Part shown: positions 5,957 through 12,234 of the stretch, one piece after another
How the letters are laid out: each line of letters starts with the position of its first letter
How positions within the stretch are numbered: the first letter of the stretch is position 1
Source of the DNA: Halorussus vallis
Lineage (GTDB): Archaea > Halobacteriota > Halobacteria > Halobacteriales > Haladaptataceae
Direction of reading: 5' to 3'
DNA: 64,000 bases
NCBI RefSeq assembly: GCF_024138165.1
Contig: NZ_CP100000.1
Coordinates: 1,736,001-1,800,000, forward strand
Notes under the pieces: generated by a model
Told to the model about the DNA's origin: nothing
Seen by the model: only the letters and a program-made list of their open reading frames with translations
Database searches by the model: none
Program-made: the position numbers and the translations under genes

Positions 5957-6006
5957 CTAAATTTGAGAATCGGTGAAAGTAAGCCTCAGTGATTAATTTC
6001 TTCTCT

Positions 6007-6594
6007 ATGAGCGATAAACAAGGGTCAGCTGATAATGAAGTCCTTCGCTATGAATACGAAAGCGCAGTGGATACAATTGAAGCCCAAATTGAGGAAGCTA
6101 ACGAAGTTCGGGATCAATCACTAGGACTACTTCGCATTATATTCATTTTACTTGGGATTATTGGGACTGCGACGACATATGGTGTTAGTGAGGTTCTTTA
6201 TCAGGTCCTTGTAGTCCGTCCGTACTGCGCCCTCCATTTTCCGGTTTGTATCGGCACAGATCTCCTCGCCTACTGGTCGGTCTTTCTGCTATTTTTGGGT
6301 CTGATATTTATTCTCTTCTCCTCAATTGGGGGAGTAAGGAAATTCGGTGCAGCAACTCATAACGATATCTACGATACACTTTCTCAGGAATATACAGAAC
6401 GTGAATTCTTCGCCCGGCGGCTTTCAGCCCACCGAAACCGAATTGCTCACCTCGCAAACGAAATAAAAACGTCTCAAACAGCTCTTGCTACTGGGTCGAG
6501 TTTGCTTGGATGTAGTCTTTCGCTGCTGGTTCTTCTTGGTCTCACAATTGCGACCAGGGTGCAGTTAGAAGATGGATTGCGACCTCTTTGTTAG
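6007..6594 (+). CDS. Three-helix membrane protein with coiled-coil segments
   Basis: A 195-residue protein in low-G+C DNA. Residues about 10-40 form a charged helix likely to be coiled-coil. Hydrophobic segments follow: LLRIIFILLGIIGTATTYG, then WSVFLLFLGLIFILFSSIG, and after a soluble charged stretch (about residues 110-155, with ERE and RLSAHRNRIAHLANEI) a last one, SSLLGCSLSLLVLLGLTIA. I do not recognise the family. The helix-TM-TM-helix-TM layout is reminiscent of membrane effectors in defence systems, but this is only a layout similarity. Start: ATG at 6007; an upstream GTG at 5989 would add six residues. Confidence 0.6.
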   Translation: MSDKQGSADNEVLRYEYESAVDTIEAQIEEANEVRDQSLGLLRIIFILLGIIGTATTYGVSEVLYQVLVVRPYCALHFPVCIGTDLLAYWSVFLLFLGLIFILFSSIGGVRKFGAATHNDIYDTLSQEYTEREFFARRLSAHRNRIAHLANEIKTSQTALATGSSLLGCSLSLLVLLGLTIATRVQLEDGLRPLC

Positions 6595-6764: not shown

Positions 6765-7769
6765 ATGATTACGGACGCTCGCGCCCTTCGCAAGTCCTAC
6801 GTCCCACAGGAACTCCATCACCGCGAAGGCCAAATTGATTATCTCTCTTCGGCTCTCCGGCCGATTACCGACGGCGATACCGGCGAGGATGCTTTCATCT
6901 TCGGACCTACTGGCACAGGGAAGACTACCATCGCCAAGTTCGTCCTCCGCCAGCTCGAACGCGAAGCCCTCGACGTTCGCTGGGGCTACGTCAACTGTAT
7001 CTCTGACGCCTCGAAAGCAGCAGTCCTCCACCGACTCGTCCGAAAAGCCGGATGCGGAGCGGACCTTCGCAAAGAGGGTACTGCCACGTCGACGTTCCTC
7101 GACCGTCTCCGCGACCTCGATAGCCAGTTCGTCGCCATCGTCGACGAGGTCCACGTCCTCGACGATATGGACACCTTGCTCGCGCTCTACGAGCTGGAGA
7201 ACGTCTCGATGGTCATGGTGACCCTCGATGAAAAGAGCCTCTTCGCAGAATTCGGCTCACAGCTCGAAAGCCGCCTTCGAAGTTCCCCGAAGGTCGATCT
7301 CGACAAATACGGGCAGGACGAGATGGTGGACATTCTCCAGGGGCGCGTTGAGGCGGGCCTGTCGCCCGGGTCAATCACCGACGAAGCAGTCGACTACATT
7401 GCGGACCTCGCTGCTGGAGATGCACGCCAAGCGATTGCTCTCCTCCGACGCTCAGCAAAGTACGCCATCAAGCACGGCGACGGCCCGATCTCCCCGGCGG
7501 TCGTCAGTCAGATTCGAAAGGACGCCCAGCGAGACATCCGGTCGTCTCGCATCGCTGAGCTGAGTACGCACCAACGATTGCTGTTCGACATTCTGAGGGA
7601 GGCAGGCGAGCTGTCGGCTGGGGAGTTGCATTCTCGGTACGAGGAGCAGGCGAACAATCCGAAGACGCGGAGTGCGCGACGGCGGTATCTCGGGAGTCTG
7701 GAGGACTACGAATTGATTACGTCGCGAGGAGCAGGGCGTGGGACGCGGTACGAATTCAGGACCAAATAG
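6765..7769 (+). CDS. Orc1/Cdc6-type AAA+ replication initiator
   Basis: A 334-residue AAA+ ATPase of the archaeal Orc1/Cdc6 family. Walker A is GPTGTGKTT at residues 47-55, Walker B is VAIVDE at 123-128, and GDARQAIALLR near 222 is the sensor-2 signature of this family. The last 80 residues form a winged helix (STHQRLLFDILREAGELSAGEL). Such proteins bind origin repeats and load the replicative helicase. At 334 residues it is shorter than many chromosomal paralogues (about 400), which is common for plasmid- or element-borne copies. Its place inside an accessory region suggests it served or serves a mobile replicon; no origin repeat array was recognised beside it. Confidence 0.9.
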   Translation: MITDARALRKSYVPQELHHREGQIDYLSSALRPITDGDTGEDAFIFGPTGTGKTTIAKFVLRQLEREALDVRWGYVNCISDASKAAVLHRLVRKAGCGADLRKEGTATSTFLDRLRDLDSQFVAIVDEVHVLDDMDTLLALYELENVSMVMVTLDEKSLFAEFGSQLESRLRSSPKVDLDKYGQDEMVDILQGRVEAGLSPGSITDEAVDYIADLAAGDARQAIALLRRSAKYAIKHGDGPISPAVVSQIRKDAQRDIRSSRIAELSTHQRLLFDILREAGELSAGELHSRYEEQANNPKTRSARRRYLGSLEDYELITSRGAGRGTRYEFRTK

Positions 7770-9037: not shown

Positions 9038-9319
9038 TCACTCACTTTCTTCGTCAAGAGTGAGTTCGCCTTCCAGGTAAGCACGGCCTCGCCATGTGAT
9101 GGAGTAGTAGCCGGGATCCTCACGCTCAACCAATTCAGCATCCCGAAGCTCACGACAGATTTGCCCGATGTAGTTACTATCCTTGTACCCTGCACTTCGG
9201 GCGAGACACTCTGGGGAGAGTCGCAACAGGTCAGAGCGAGAACTCGGGGGTGTTTCCAGCCCGAGCAGTTCGAGGACCGCCCTATGAGCGTCTGTCGGGC
9301 CGTCCTCCTCCAATGCCAT
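9038..9319 (-). CDS. Winged-helix DNA-binding protein (PhiH1-repressor-like)
   Basis: A 93-residue protein. RLSPECLARSAGYKDSNYIGQICRELRDAELVEREDPGYYSITWRG has the helix-turn-helix plus beta-wing pattern of haloarchaeal PhiH1-repressor-like regulators. It is transcribed divergently from the operon that begins at 9551, with both promoters inside the shared 230-base gap, so it is a good candidate regulator of that operon. I use the ATG at 9319; an upstream TTG would add five residues. A TAAATT box about 30 bp upstream supports this start. Confidence 0.7.
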   Translation of the reverse strand: MALEEDGPTDAHRAVLELLGLETPPSSRSDLLRLSPECLARSAGYKDSNYIGQICRELRDAELVEREDPGYYSITWRGRAYLEGELTLDEESE

Positions 9320-9411
9320 GGTCGCTCGTTTCAACTGTCAGGGTTTAATTTGCCCGATTCATCTAGCGGACAATGTAGGTGCAATTCTAACAACGTAGCT
9401 ACGTGGATAGA

Positions 9412-9417
9412 TTTAAG
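9412..9417 (+). promoter_or_regulatory. TATA-like box for the leader transcript at 9440
   Basis: TTTAAG within GATAGATTTAAGTTG. A start about 26 bases downstream would place the 5' end of the RNA near 9440, just before the first inverted-repeat arm. Confidence 0.4.
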
Positions 9418-9443
9418 TTGTGTCGGTTATCACGGGGGAAGTA

Positions 9444-9550
9444 ACGGAAGCAATGCGCGGACCCGTCGCTCCCCGATGGGTCCCTCTCAAAAGCGGACCA
9501 GTGGTGAGGCACTGGGTCCGCGGCTTGCTTCCGTATCAGGCTACGGAAGC
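9444..9550 (+). promoter_or_regulatory. Structured leader with mutually exclusive hairpins
   Basis: Arm A (9444-9464, beginning ACGGAAGCAATG) is complementary to arm B (9514-9534) over 21 bases with two mismatches. The end of arm B (9527-9535, GCTTCCGTA) is also perfectly complementary to 9542-9550 (TACGGAAGC), a 9-bp hairpin with a 6-base loop that ends directly before the ATG at 9551. GGGTCC at 9478-9483 is a third partner for the GGACCC end of arm A. The pairings exclude each other, as in RNA switches or attenuators. A mobile-element scar is an alternative. Confidence 0.5.
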
Positions 9551-10090
9551 ATGATGGAAGATGACTCACGGGGTCTTGAAGGCCCCGACAGACCAGTGGA
9601 AACGACGGACGACTACGCGGACTGCCCCAACTGCGGAGCGCAGATACTGGCGCTCGTAGCGCGCGGACCGTCTCGGCACTTCCTCGAACCCTGTGGATGC
9701 CGAGTGACGGCGATGACCGCACACGACCTCGTTGGCGATACCAAACAGTCGCGGGTGGCGACGGACGGCGGCATTCAGTTCACCGACCTTCACGCCTTCG
9801 AGCGCGATCTCCTCTATGCAGTCCGAACCCTCGAACGCGAGGATGAACCTCCGAAGGGCCTCGCAGTCAAGGAACACCTCGAACCCGACTACCGTGACCG
9901 GATTCACCACTCGCGGCTCTACCAGAATCTGAACGGACTCGTCGACCGTGGCCTGCTCGCGAAGGGCGAGAAGGACGGCCGGACCAGCGAGTACGAGACG
10001 ACCGACGAAGGCCGGCACCTGGTCGACCGCCGCGCGAAGCGCCTCGCCGAACGGGCCGGGTTCGCGGTCGAAGGCGGTGATGACCGATGA
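9551..10090 (+). CDS. Zinc-ribbon plus winged-helix regulator (PhiH1-like)
   Basis: A 179-residue protein. CPNCG near residue 26 and a later Cys pair (EPCGCRV, about residue 52) suggest a zinc-ribbon-like N-terminal part. Residues about 80-165 form a PadR/PhiH1-type winged helix: DLLYAVRTLEREDEPPKGLAVKEHLE, HHSRLYQNLNGLVDRGLLAKGEKDGRTSEYETTDEGRHLV. It begins a run of genes that overlap by one to four bases and end with the integrase, so it may control excision or maintenance of the element. The frame is open much further upstream, but the ATG pair at 9551/9554 gives the first haloarchaeal-looking N-terminus. Confidence 0.75.
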   Translation: MMEDDSRGLEGPDRPVETTDDYADCPNCGAQILALVARGPSRHFLEPCGCRVTAMTAHDLVGDTKQSRVATDGGIQFTDLHAFERDLLYAVRTLEREDEPPKGLAVKEHLEPDYRDRIHHSRLYQNLNGLVDRGLLAKGEKDGRTSEYETTDEGRHLVDRRAKRLAERAGFAVEGGDDR

Positions 10091-10392: not shown

Positions 10393-10604
10393 TGGATGAC
10401 GAAGTTGGCGTCCCGACGTACACGGAAATCGTTCGGACCAGTGCGGCTGAACGCTTCGACGCCACTGCGAACCTGCTCTACCACCGCGCTCTGTACGCGC
10501 AAACCGGCTATCGGCAGAACATATATCTCAAACTCGCCCGGACCGCGGGCCGAATCGCCGAGCGACTTGACCCGGAGATGGACCTGCGAGGTGTTCGAGC
10601 GTGA
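10392..10604 (+). CDS. Small helical protein of integrase operon
   Basis: A 70-residue, mostly helical protein (TSAAERFDATANLLYHRALYAQTGYRQNIYLKLARTAGRIAERL). Its ATG shares a base with the stop of the preceding gene, and its stop overlaps the GTG of the J-domain gene. No family is recognised; the helix pair with Tyr and Leu heptads could mediate protein contacts, perhaps with the J-domain protein. Coding status is supported by the unbroken chain of overlaps. Confidence 0.6.
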   Translation: MDDEVGVPTYTEIVRTSAAERFDATANLLYHRALYAQTGYRQNIYLKLARTAGRIAERLDPEMDLRGVRA

Positions 10605-11200
10605 CGCAGGAACTCGACTGGCCGGCCGGCTTCGACCGCACCAACCCGGCCGACCGGACGCGGAACAACCGCTACGAAGCGACGCTCCGGGACTCCATCG
10701 ACGACCTCGAAGCGGAGCTCGGACGCGTCGGCGTCGACGATTGGCGACTCTCGACGGCCGCACGCCACCAGAAGCGGAATCCGAAGTACCCCTACGCCGA
10801 CGCGAATCCGAGTGACCCGAGTGCGGTCGTTCGGTGGTCCATGGACGGCGCGCAGTACGCGGTCGCCTGTGACGCCTACTCCCGACTTCGGGACAACGTC
10901 CGGACGCTCTACCTCTACGTCCGCGAGAAGCGCAAGATGGAGCAGCGCCCAGTGGTCACCGGGGAGAGCGAGTTCGCCAACGCGCGACTCCCGCCAGGCG
11001 ACTCGGAAGCCGACGCGGTGGTGGCCCGCCGACCGCCCCACGAACTTCTCGACGTCGCACCGGACGCCGCAGAGGACGTCGTGAAGGCGGCAGCGCGGCA
11101 GAAGCTGAAGGAACACCACCCAGACCGCGGCGGCGACCGGGAGGCGTTCCAGCGCGTCCAGGAGGCGAGAGAGGCCATGCTCTCCGATGGGGACCGATGA
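10601..11200 (+). CDS. C-terminal J-domain protein next to the integrase
   Basis: A 199-residue protein from a GTG start that overlaps the previous stop. Residues about 143-199 are a DnaJ-type J domain: PPHELLDVAPDAAEDVVKAAARQKLKEHHPDRGGD, with the HPD motif at 173-175 that stimulates DnaK ATPase. The N-terminal 140 residues are charged, helical and unrecognised. J domains normally sit at the N-terminus of DnaJ; C-terminal placement is typical of specialised co-chaperones. Its gene overlaps the integrase start by four bases. A role in recruiting host DnaK to an integration or replication complex is inference. Confidence 0.8.
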   Translation: MTQELDWPAGFDRTNPADRTRNNRYEATLRDSIDDLEAELGRVGVDDWRLSTAARHQKRNPKYPYADANPSDPSAVVRWSMDGAQYAVACDAYSRLRDNVRTLYLYVREKRKMEQRPVVTGESEFANARLPPGDSEADAVVARRPPHELLDVAPDAAEDVVKAAARQKLKEHHPDRGGDREAFQRVQEAREAMLSDGDR

Positions 11201-12234
11201 ACCGGGACGGTAGACCGGACCCCGCGGACATCCCGCCGCGCGAGGCCGTCCAGCGATACCTTCGACGTCGACGGTCCGACGCGACGGAAGCCAGCGTCGA
11301 TTCGTGGGCTTACCGGCTGAAAATCTTCGTCGAGTGGTGCGAGGGCATCGGCATCGAGCGCGTCGGCGATCTCCGGCCGTTCGACCTCGACGAGTACTAC
11401 GACATCCGGAGCGGGACGGTCGAACCGTCGACCCTCGAAGGCGAGATGTGGACGCTCAAGAAGTTCGCCGAGTACGTCGACCAGCTCGGCGCTGCCGACA
11501 ACTTGGCGGACGCCGTCCGCATTCCCGACGTCGACCCGGAAGACCGCTCGGACGAGACGCTCCTGGAGGAGTCGCCGGCGCTCAAGCTAATCGACCACTT
11601 CCGGCAGAGCGACCGCCTTCGGGGAACGCGCCGGCACGCGTTTCTCGAAATCGCCTGGCACACCGGCGCGCGGATGGGCGGCATCCGAGCATTGGACATC
11701 CGGGACGCCCATCTCGATGAGGATTATGTCGAATTCAAGCATCGGCCTGAGACGGACACGCCGCTGAAGAACAAGCAGAGCGGCGAGAGGCCGGTCGCGA
11801 TTCCGAGCGAGGTTTCGGACGTCCTTCGGGAATATCTCCGCGAGCACCGCTACGACGTCCACGACGGACACGGTAGGCAGCCCTTACTCGCCAGCAATCG
11901 GGGTCGCCCCGGAACGAACACGATTCGGGTCTGGTCGTACCTCGCGACCCACCCGTGTCTCTACTGTCCGTGTCCGCACGGCAAGGAGCGAGAGACGTGC
12001 GAGATGACGGAGTTCGCCCATGCCAGTAAGTGCCCGTCGAGTCGGTCTCCCCACCAGATTCGGACGGGCTCGATCACGTGGCAGCTGAACATCGGTATCC
12101 CGCCGGAAATCGTCGCGGAGCGGGTCAACGCCACCATCGAAGTCATCGAACAGCACTACGACAAGGAGTCGCCGCTGGAGCGCATGGAGCGCCGGCGACG
12201 GCAGTACGTTGAGCGAATGGAGAAACACGAATGA
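11197..12234 (+). CDS. Tyrosine site-specific recombinase (integrase)
   Basis: A 345-residue tyrosine recombinase. Residues about 14-100 form the SAM-like N-terminal DNA-binding domain. The catalytic domain shows HTGARMGGIRALD (Arg159), a Lys-containing beta-hairpin (191-193), HQIR (His286, Arg289) and the nucleophile Tyr321 in EQHYDK. The usual second His/Trp before the Tyr is Asn311 (ERVNAT). Between 254 and 279 there is an inserted Cys/His cluster (Cys254, Cys257, Cys259, His261, Cys268, Cys279), probably zinc-binding. The protein would catalyse integration and excision of the accessory element. It is the last gene of the overlapping operon, as integrases often are beside an attachment site. 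Confidence 0.9.
   Translation: MNRDGRPDPADIPPREAVQRYLRRRRSDATEASVDSWAYRLKIFVEWCEGIGIERVGDLRPFDLDEYYDIRSGTVEPSTLEGEMWTLKKFAEYVDQLGAADNLADAVRIPDVDPEDRSDETLLEESPALKLIDHFRQSDRLRGTRRHAFLEIAWHTGARMGGIRALDIRDAHLDEDYVEFKHRPETDTPLKNKQSGERPVAIPSEVSDVLREYLREHRYDVHDGHGRQPLLASNRGRPGTNTIRVWSYLATHPCLYCPCPHGKERETCEMTEFAHASKCPSSRSPHQIRTGSITWQLNIGIPPEIVAERVNATIEVIEQHYDKESPLERMERRRRQYVERMEKHE

Follow-up and report, generated by a model that had tools for sequence, protein, structure and literature searches.

Positions 9442-9550 of the window, by which we mean the whole 64 kb stretch of DNA analysed, hold a structured leader that is well supported in both its structure and its position. We read it as a leader of the phiH T1 type that heads the early operon of an SNJ2-like provirus and that, together with an antisense RNA resembling T(ant), controls this integrase operon; to this reading as a whole we give an even chance. 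The existence of an antisense RNA in the window, and its action, we infer. More than 40% of the haloarchaeal genomes examined have the covarying leader, in a constant place between the gene of the lysogeny repressor and the integrase operon, and it would rank among the commonest regulatory RNAs of haloarchaea. The mRNAs of haloarchaea are largely leaderless, and to our knowledge few conserved cis-regulatory RNAs have been described in Archaea. The leader looks like a control point for the exit of the virus from the host chromosome. Phage leaders that are structured and may be under antisense control are known as a kind; the novelty appears to lie in this family, in how widely it is spread and in the covariation of both helices. 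No earlier report of such an RNA was found in the open literature, which is no proof of absence, and none of an SNJ2 leader RNA in a search that did not cover the NAR 2018 and NAR 2023 regulation papers.

Gene setting, promoter and fold of the leader

By gene content and order, the window contains an SNJ2-like provirus. Its Orc1/Cdc6-like gene lies at 6765-7769, and a divergent gene for a winged-helix repressor of the SNJ2 Orf4 / phiH1 Imm type lies at 9038-9334 on the reverse strand (phrog_2440 transcriptional regulator, E 1.4e-12; matched by SNJ2 gp4). The leader is followed by a PadR-like, phiH1_295-like regulator with a CPxCG zinc motif (9551-10090, forward strand; Pfam PadR, E 5.9e-7). 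A match to phrog_4278 (E 5.9e-28) and protein comparison, in which it was similar to a phiH1 protein and to SNJ2 gp3, agree with the initial annotation, which had called this regulator phiH1-like; its best plasmid matches are from Halorussus. Small ORFs separate it from the gene of a DnaJ-domain protein (10601-11200, forward strand; Pfam DnaJ, E 7.7e-8; phrog_9210, E 3e-64), which is followed by an SNJ2-type tyrosine integrase gene (11197-12234, forward strand; Pfam Phage_integrase, E 1.3e-6; SNJ2 integrase matches, E 6e-69). The integrase is the last gene of the operon, ending at 12234, and the leader was rightly placed at its head. The DnaJ-domain protein (phrog_9210) was seen again in several relatives.

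The betapleolipovirus SNJ2 shares with the window the element itself and the order Orc1, repressor, PadR-like gene and integrase; its operon is orf3-orf2-int, with Orf4 as the repressor and Orf8 as the Orc1-like protein. The window differs from SNJ2 in the presence of the DnaJ-domain gene and in a longer PadR protein. The SNJ2 repressor Orf4 reportedly represses int, and Orf7 together with the Orc1-like Orf8 is said to relieve this repression. It is reported that orf4-orf10 form the lysogeny region of SNJ2 and that orf1-3 are co-transcribed (PMC13107129). Among 80 aligned copies of the element, a divergent, opposite-strand Orf4-like gene lies about 200-500 nt upstream in 74, and a PadR-like, DnaJ-like or integrase gene lies within about 2 kb downstream in 62. 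In several relatives (e.g. L057, L064 and L073) the ORF after the leader has just 30-37 codons, and an N-terminal stretch equal to this short ORF is fused to the PadR protein in other elements. At locus L034 (NZ_CP035122.1), the plasmid table has no annotated gene for a PadR-like coding region at 6001-6324.

A palindrome, a TATA box and then the folded leader lie between the divergent genes (9038-9334 and 9551). The palindrome ACGTAGCTACGT (9391-9402, without strand) is immediately upstream of the TATA box and is a candidate repressor operator. Of 79 relatives, 17 have a palindrome at p<=0.05 in the interval 5' of the TATA box, versus about 4 expected; the window's own has p 0.08. The TATA box TTTAAG of the operon promoter (9412-9417, forward strand) is where it had been annotated, and the promoter matrix from the relatives gives 11.3 bits for a start at 9441 and 7.9 bits for a start at 9442. 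In 79 copies the forward TATA box lies 24-30 nt 5' of arm A in a fixed register, and because of this fixed distance the RNA should start at arm A, for which 9441-9442 on the forward strand is the predicted position. The initial annotation had expected a start there and not at or after 9545; the TATA spacing in the relatives agrees with it, and the sole mapped homologous start, that of phiH1 T1, falls at arm A, on the equivalent base. For SNJ2, the sense transcript is predicted to begin at the TAACGCGAG arm.

The base pairings described earlier are all correct on direct reading of the sequence. Positions 9444-9464 (ACGGAAGCAATGCGCGGACCC) are complementary to 9514-9534 (GGGTCCGCGGCTTGCTTCCGT) with two mismatches, 9527-9535 (GCTTCCGTA) are perfectly complementary to 9542-9550 (TACGGAAGC), with the ATG at 9551, and GGGTCC is at 9478-9483. 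The sequence ACGGAAGCA occurs three times in the 64 kb window, every time in the leader. The RNA of 9438-9575 folds with -65 kcal/mol (z -4.46), which none of 200 shuffles equalled, and among 300 dinucleotide shuffles of the window's leader, one attained the three-arm layout.

The conserved fold is a closing helix P1 of 9-10 bp (9444-9453 with 9525-9534) that encloses two hairpins, P3 and P4, all on the forward strand. Arm A (9444-9453), supported by A:B covariation, is the 5' strand of P1. Hairpin P3 (GGACCCGTCG / CGATGGGTCC, 9459-9483) has 94.8% standard pairs and double changes in 6 of 7 pairs among 79 distinct sequences, and hairpin P4 (GCGGACC-AGTG / CACT-G-GGTCCGC, 9493-9521) has 99% standard pairs. 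Arm B (9525-9535) is the partner of both A and C, and arm C (9542-9551), a partial repeat of A, lies immediately 5' of the start codon. The initial annotation had described A:B as a stem of 21 bp. Its pairing stands, but the 21-bp extension is an alternative to P3 and P4 with weaker comparative support, and it was rejected as the main fold. An upstream ORF (9453-9553) runs from an ATG beside arm A through the leader to a TGA overlapping the main ATG; this ORF is probably incidental, because its ATG is absent from most relatives. No Rfam family scored above its gathering score in the window; the only match seen was a chance one to SmY (E 0.72).

Covariation among relatives and spread in Halobacteria

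RNAalifold on the leaders of nine relatives recovered A:B and the two inner hairpins unaided. The larger alignment has 80 copies, mostly picked among the better-scoring matches, of which 79 are distinct in sequence. Standard pairs fill 96.2% of its helix cells, versus 88.5% when shuffled and 29-44% when slid, and 20 of 26 pairs have changed on both sides. Beyond chance, the 80 aligned relatives share the structure while differing in sequence. Because the alignment had been fitted to the structure, we ran a tree-based null in which substitutions were replayed on the tree at the observed column rates, in 60 replicates. Among all column pairs, 6-131 in A:B ranked first, 98-110 in P4 second and 131-147 in B:C third, and each of the three was reached by none of the 60 null alignments. 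The A-C pair 6-147 follows by transitivity from 6-131 and 131-147. Most other column pairs were singly below significance against this null.

The B:C pairing was no part of the covariance model. It is paired in 87.1% of its cells, versus 78.3% when shuffled and 27-40% when slid, with double changes in 6 of 9 pairs, and columns 135-143, a pair specific to B:C, covary. Since A:B and B:C both covary and have arm B in common, both helices are under selection. Column 131 in arm B covaries with column 6 in A and column 147 in C, so that the two partners first given to arm B on paper are also its partners in evolution, and changes in the arms of homologous leaders were found to be compensated. The structured 5' leader of the initial annotation is therefore upheld, with a fold beyond shuffles and helices covarying in relatives. 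The window has the features of the new leader RNA family, namely P1, P3, P4 and the covarying B:C, ending at the ATG; as the model includes this ATG, part of its invariance comes from the model itself.

A covariance model (R1), built from seven relatives with the window left out, finds 9442-9553 of the window at 71.6 bits (E about 2e-15). It has matches in at least 172 of 391 Halobacteria genomes and at least 55 of 86 genera, with up to nine copies in one genome. A second model with a stricter threshold (R2) has matches in at least 170 of the 391 Halobacteria genomes and in none of 164 genomes of classes outside Halobacteria; across the phylum, R2 gave 19 matches, all from the window's own order. 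With few candidates scored in each genome, these counts are minimum values. No second copy was found in the window's own genome. SNJ2 carries the element between gp4 and gp3 (126 bits with R1), and it is also carried by the pleolipovirus HRPV9 and by one Halorussus aquaticus plasmid.

Starting from relatives of the PadR-like gene, we arrived at SNJ2 and at several genomes with leaders alignable to that of the window. The window's own PadR protein found no relatives as a query against the genome contigs and viral contigs, so whole-genome searches and searches with the RNA models supplied the wider set. At locus L003, which has the closest PadR protein (65%), the upstream region differs, yet the element is present elsewhere in that genome. 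Divergent leaders were seen at L032, L033, L034 and L017, with quite different arm sequences, the A-B-C order kept, and low model scores.

Likeness to phiH and the proposed antisense lock

Stolt and Zillig (1993, PMID 7683366) described the T1 leader of halovirus phiH and its antisense RNA T(ant), which are annotated in MK002701. According to a 2014 review (PMC4284463), T(ant) renders T1 susceptible to host RNases. In the phiH1 record, both starts are annotated from experiment: T1 begins at L037:2748, and T(ant) at 2898, one base 5' of the ATG that opens the PadR-like gene. The sequence AGAGCAGG, whose first base is the T1 start, pairs with CCTGCTC close to the leader end, and CAGAGC stands before the ATG, so that the order of A, B and C equals that in the window. 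Between phiH1 and phiCh1, arms A and B show a compensatory change from GAGCAGG/CCTGCTC to GAGCAAG/CTTGCTC.

phiH and the window also have in common a divergent small repressor or immunity gene, a PadR-like first gene, a long leader from arm A to the ATG with arm B near its 3' end, and an ORF start with the same G-N-K spacing. On the other hand, phiH is a myovirus with no integrase among the following genes in the stretch compared, its leader of 151 nt is missed by the models, and its T(ant) is shown, whereas that of the window is predicted. The phiH1 and phiCh1 leaders were not found by R2 even with filters off, and the three-arm score of phiH1, taken by itself, falls short of significance (84 of 300 shuffles were as good). 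Since the models miss phiH1, its homology is argued from gene order, the mapped starts and where the arms lie. With model-level similarity absent, we suggest that the window leader works like phiH T1, and membership is not claimed.

Inside the ORF start, at a constant distance from the ATG, lies a further inverted repeat, P5 (CGGGGTCTTGAAGGCCCCG, 9569-9587, forward strand), which at +19 to +37 from the ATG is outside the covariance model. Its GGGG and CCCC stand on either side of an A-A pair at +29/+30; this pair is almost invariant, with A at +29 in 79 of 79, although the amino acids vary (GLE, GHK, GEK, GNQ and others). At codon 10 the ratio of NAA to NAG is 71:6, versus 333:640 elsewhere in the ORFs, and this preference shows a nucleotide-level constraint at P5. 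Pair 23-33 of P5 was also seen to covary in the 79 relatives (G-C 46, A-T 14). The near-palindrome could be a hairpin, an operator of the PadR-like protein or a piece of an antisense promoter.

A candidate antisense TATA-like box lies inside P5 (9573-9581, reverse strand), with a predicted antisense start at 9550/9551. When the forward TATA matrix from the 79 copies was scanned on the other strand, the best average among 170 registers was at the one predicted from T(ant), and the peak spans 0 and +1 relative to the start that corresponds to T(ant). The candidate box is weak on average, with 1.2 bits versus 7.5 for the forward box, and has -2.3 bits in the window; the average is similar to the level of the working phiH1 T(ant) promoter and low in absolute terms. 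When the scan was widened, an equally high score was reached by 3 of 264 other register triples.

If the leader has such an antisense partner, RNA would start at arm A once the divergent repressor (9038-9334) is off, and arm A would pair with arm B, closing the leader upon itself around P3 and P4. A T(ant)-like antisense RNA would start opposite the start codon. Its 5' end would be the complement of arm C, able to pair with the complement of arm B, and the sense and antisense RNAs would be complementary across the whole leader. In a lysogen, the antisense RNA may pair with stray leader RNA and cause its processing or a translation block, which would be a second lock on integrase expression. 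In our view, a lysogeny lock stands behind the repressor, and the RNA half of this lock is the leader. More tentatively, B would hold the 5' end of the mRNA (A:B) and its complement the 5' end of the antisense RNA (B':C') until the strands anneal; this two-strand arrangement would lock the integrase operon in lysogeny and would have been retained by proviruses across most haloarchaeal genera, which we regard as possible but rather doubtful. Antisense control of the phiH type was reported for a single virus in 1993 and not taken up again; it may be a mechanism that proviruses use generally. SNJ2 has genetics and allows a direct test.

Strand evidence and competing explanations

In A:B, P3 and P4 there are 154 cells with G.T mismatches versus 30 with A.C, or 59:18 by independent gains, where composition leads one to expect about 2:1. 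This favours a sense strand folded as RNA over a DNA site. On the sense strand of B:C, 76 A.C mismatches and no G.T were counted (18 versus 0 by gains). This pattern fits a reading with sense and antisense RNA, but after correction for base composition the antisense-strand bias is no more than marginal, and the tree-corrected strand test for B:C, being weaker than the raw counts, was not leaned on. The commonest B:C mismatch, at columns 130-148, breaks the helix in 49 of 79 sequences.

An intramolecular RNA switch, as the initial annotation had it, we consider unlikely. A:B would free arm C and the ATG, and when A is displaced or cleaved, B:C would mask the start region, thus setting translation or processing of the operon. 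The covariation of column 131 with both A and C is what such a switch would leave, as are the excess of B:C pairing over shuffled alignments and the covarying B:C-specific columns 135-143, and the extended A:B stem would be a further alternative to P3 and P4. However, A.C mismatches without any G.U are the opposite of what is tolerated in a selected mRNA helix, and the mismatch at columns 130-148 breaks B:C in the majority of sequences. As A:B is longer and transcribed first, B:C needs a trigger, and none was found; the leader has no terminator-like U run, and no sign of a ligand was seen. Of the features of a switch or attenuator, the two mutually exclusive helices, both conserved, are present, and the B:C mismatches speak weakly against both forming in one RNA. 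A:B in the mRNA and B:C in an antisense RNA from the ATG, as in phiH, is a reading equally good as the one-RNA switch.

That arms A, B and C are repeated DNA sites for the repressor, the PadR-like protein or the integrase, with the hairpins a by-product, seems to us quite improbable. The arms are copies of one short sequence and change together, the repressor and accessory proteins are of DNA-binding types, and the accessory proteins of SNJ2 stimulate recombination (PMC8371274). However, P3 and P4 covary and are no copies of the arm site, the excess of G.T over A.C in A:B, P3 and P4 would be meaningless for double-stranded DNA, a separate palindrome occupies the expected operator place upstream of the TATA box, and the arms begin at the transcription start. 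A replication origin hairpin, like that at the rolling-circle origin of SNJ2, is very improbable and was rejected: the element is SNJ2-like with an Orc1/Cdc6 gene, and SNJ2 replication requires a DNA hairpin (PMC13107129), but the SNJ2 origin was mapped downstream of orf19, away from the leader promoter region.

Bacterial leader attenuators and riboswitches resemble the window in having a 5' leader with competing helices before the start codon. The window leader differs from them in that no terminator and no ligand-like conserved core were seen, and in having been found only in Halobacteria, tied to proviruses. Antisense control of plasmids, as by CopA/CopT, likewise has a structured target leader that a complementary RNA overlaps; the system of the window, with its predicted antisense RNA, would control a recombination operon and not copy number. 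The P4 loop has a YUNR-like start in 48 of the 80 copies.
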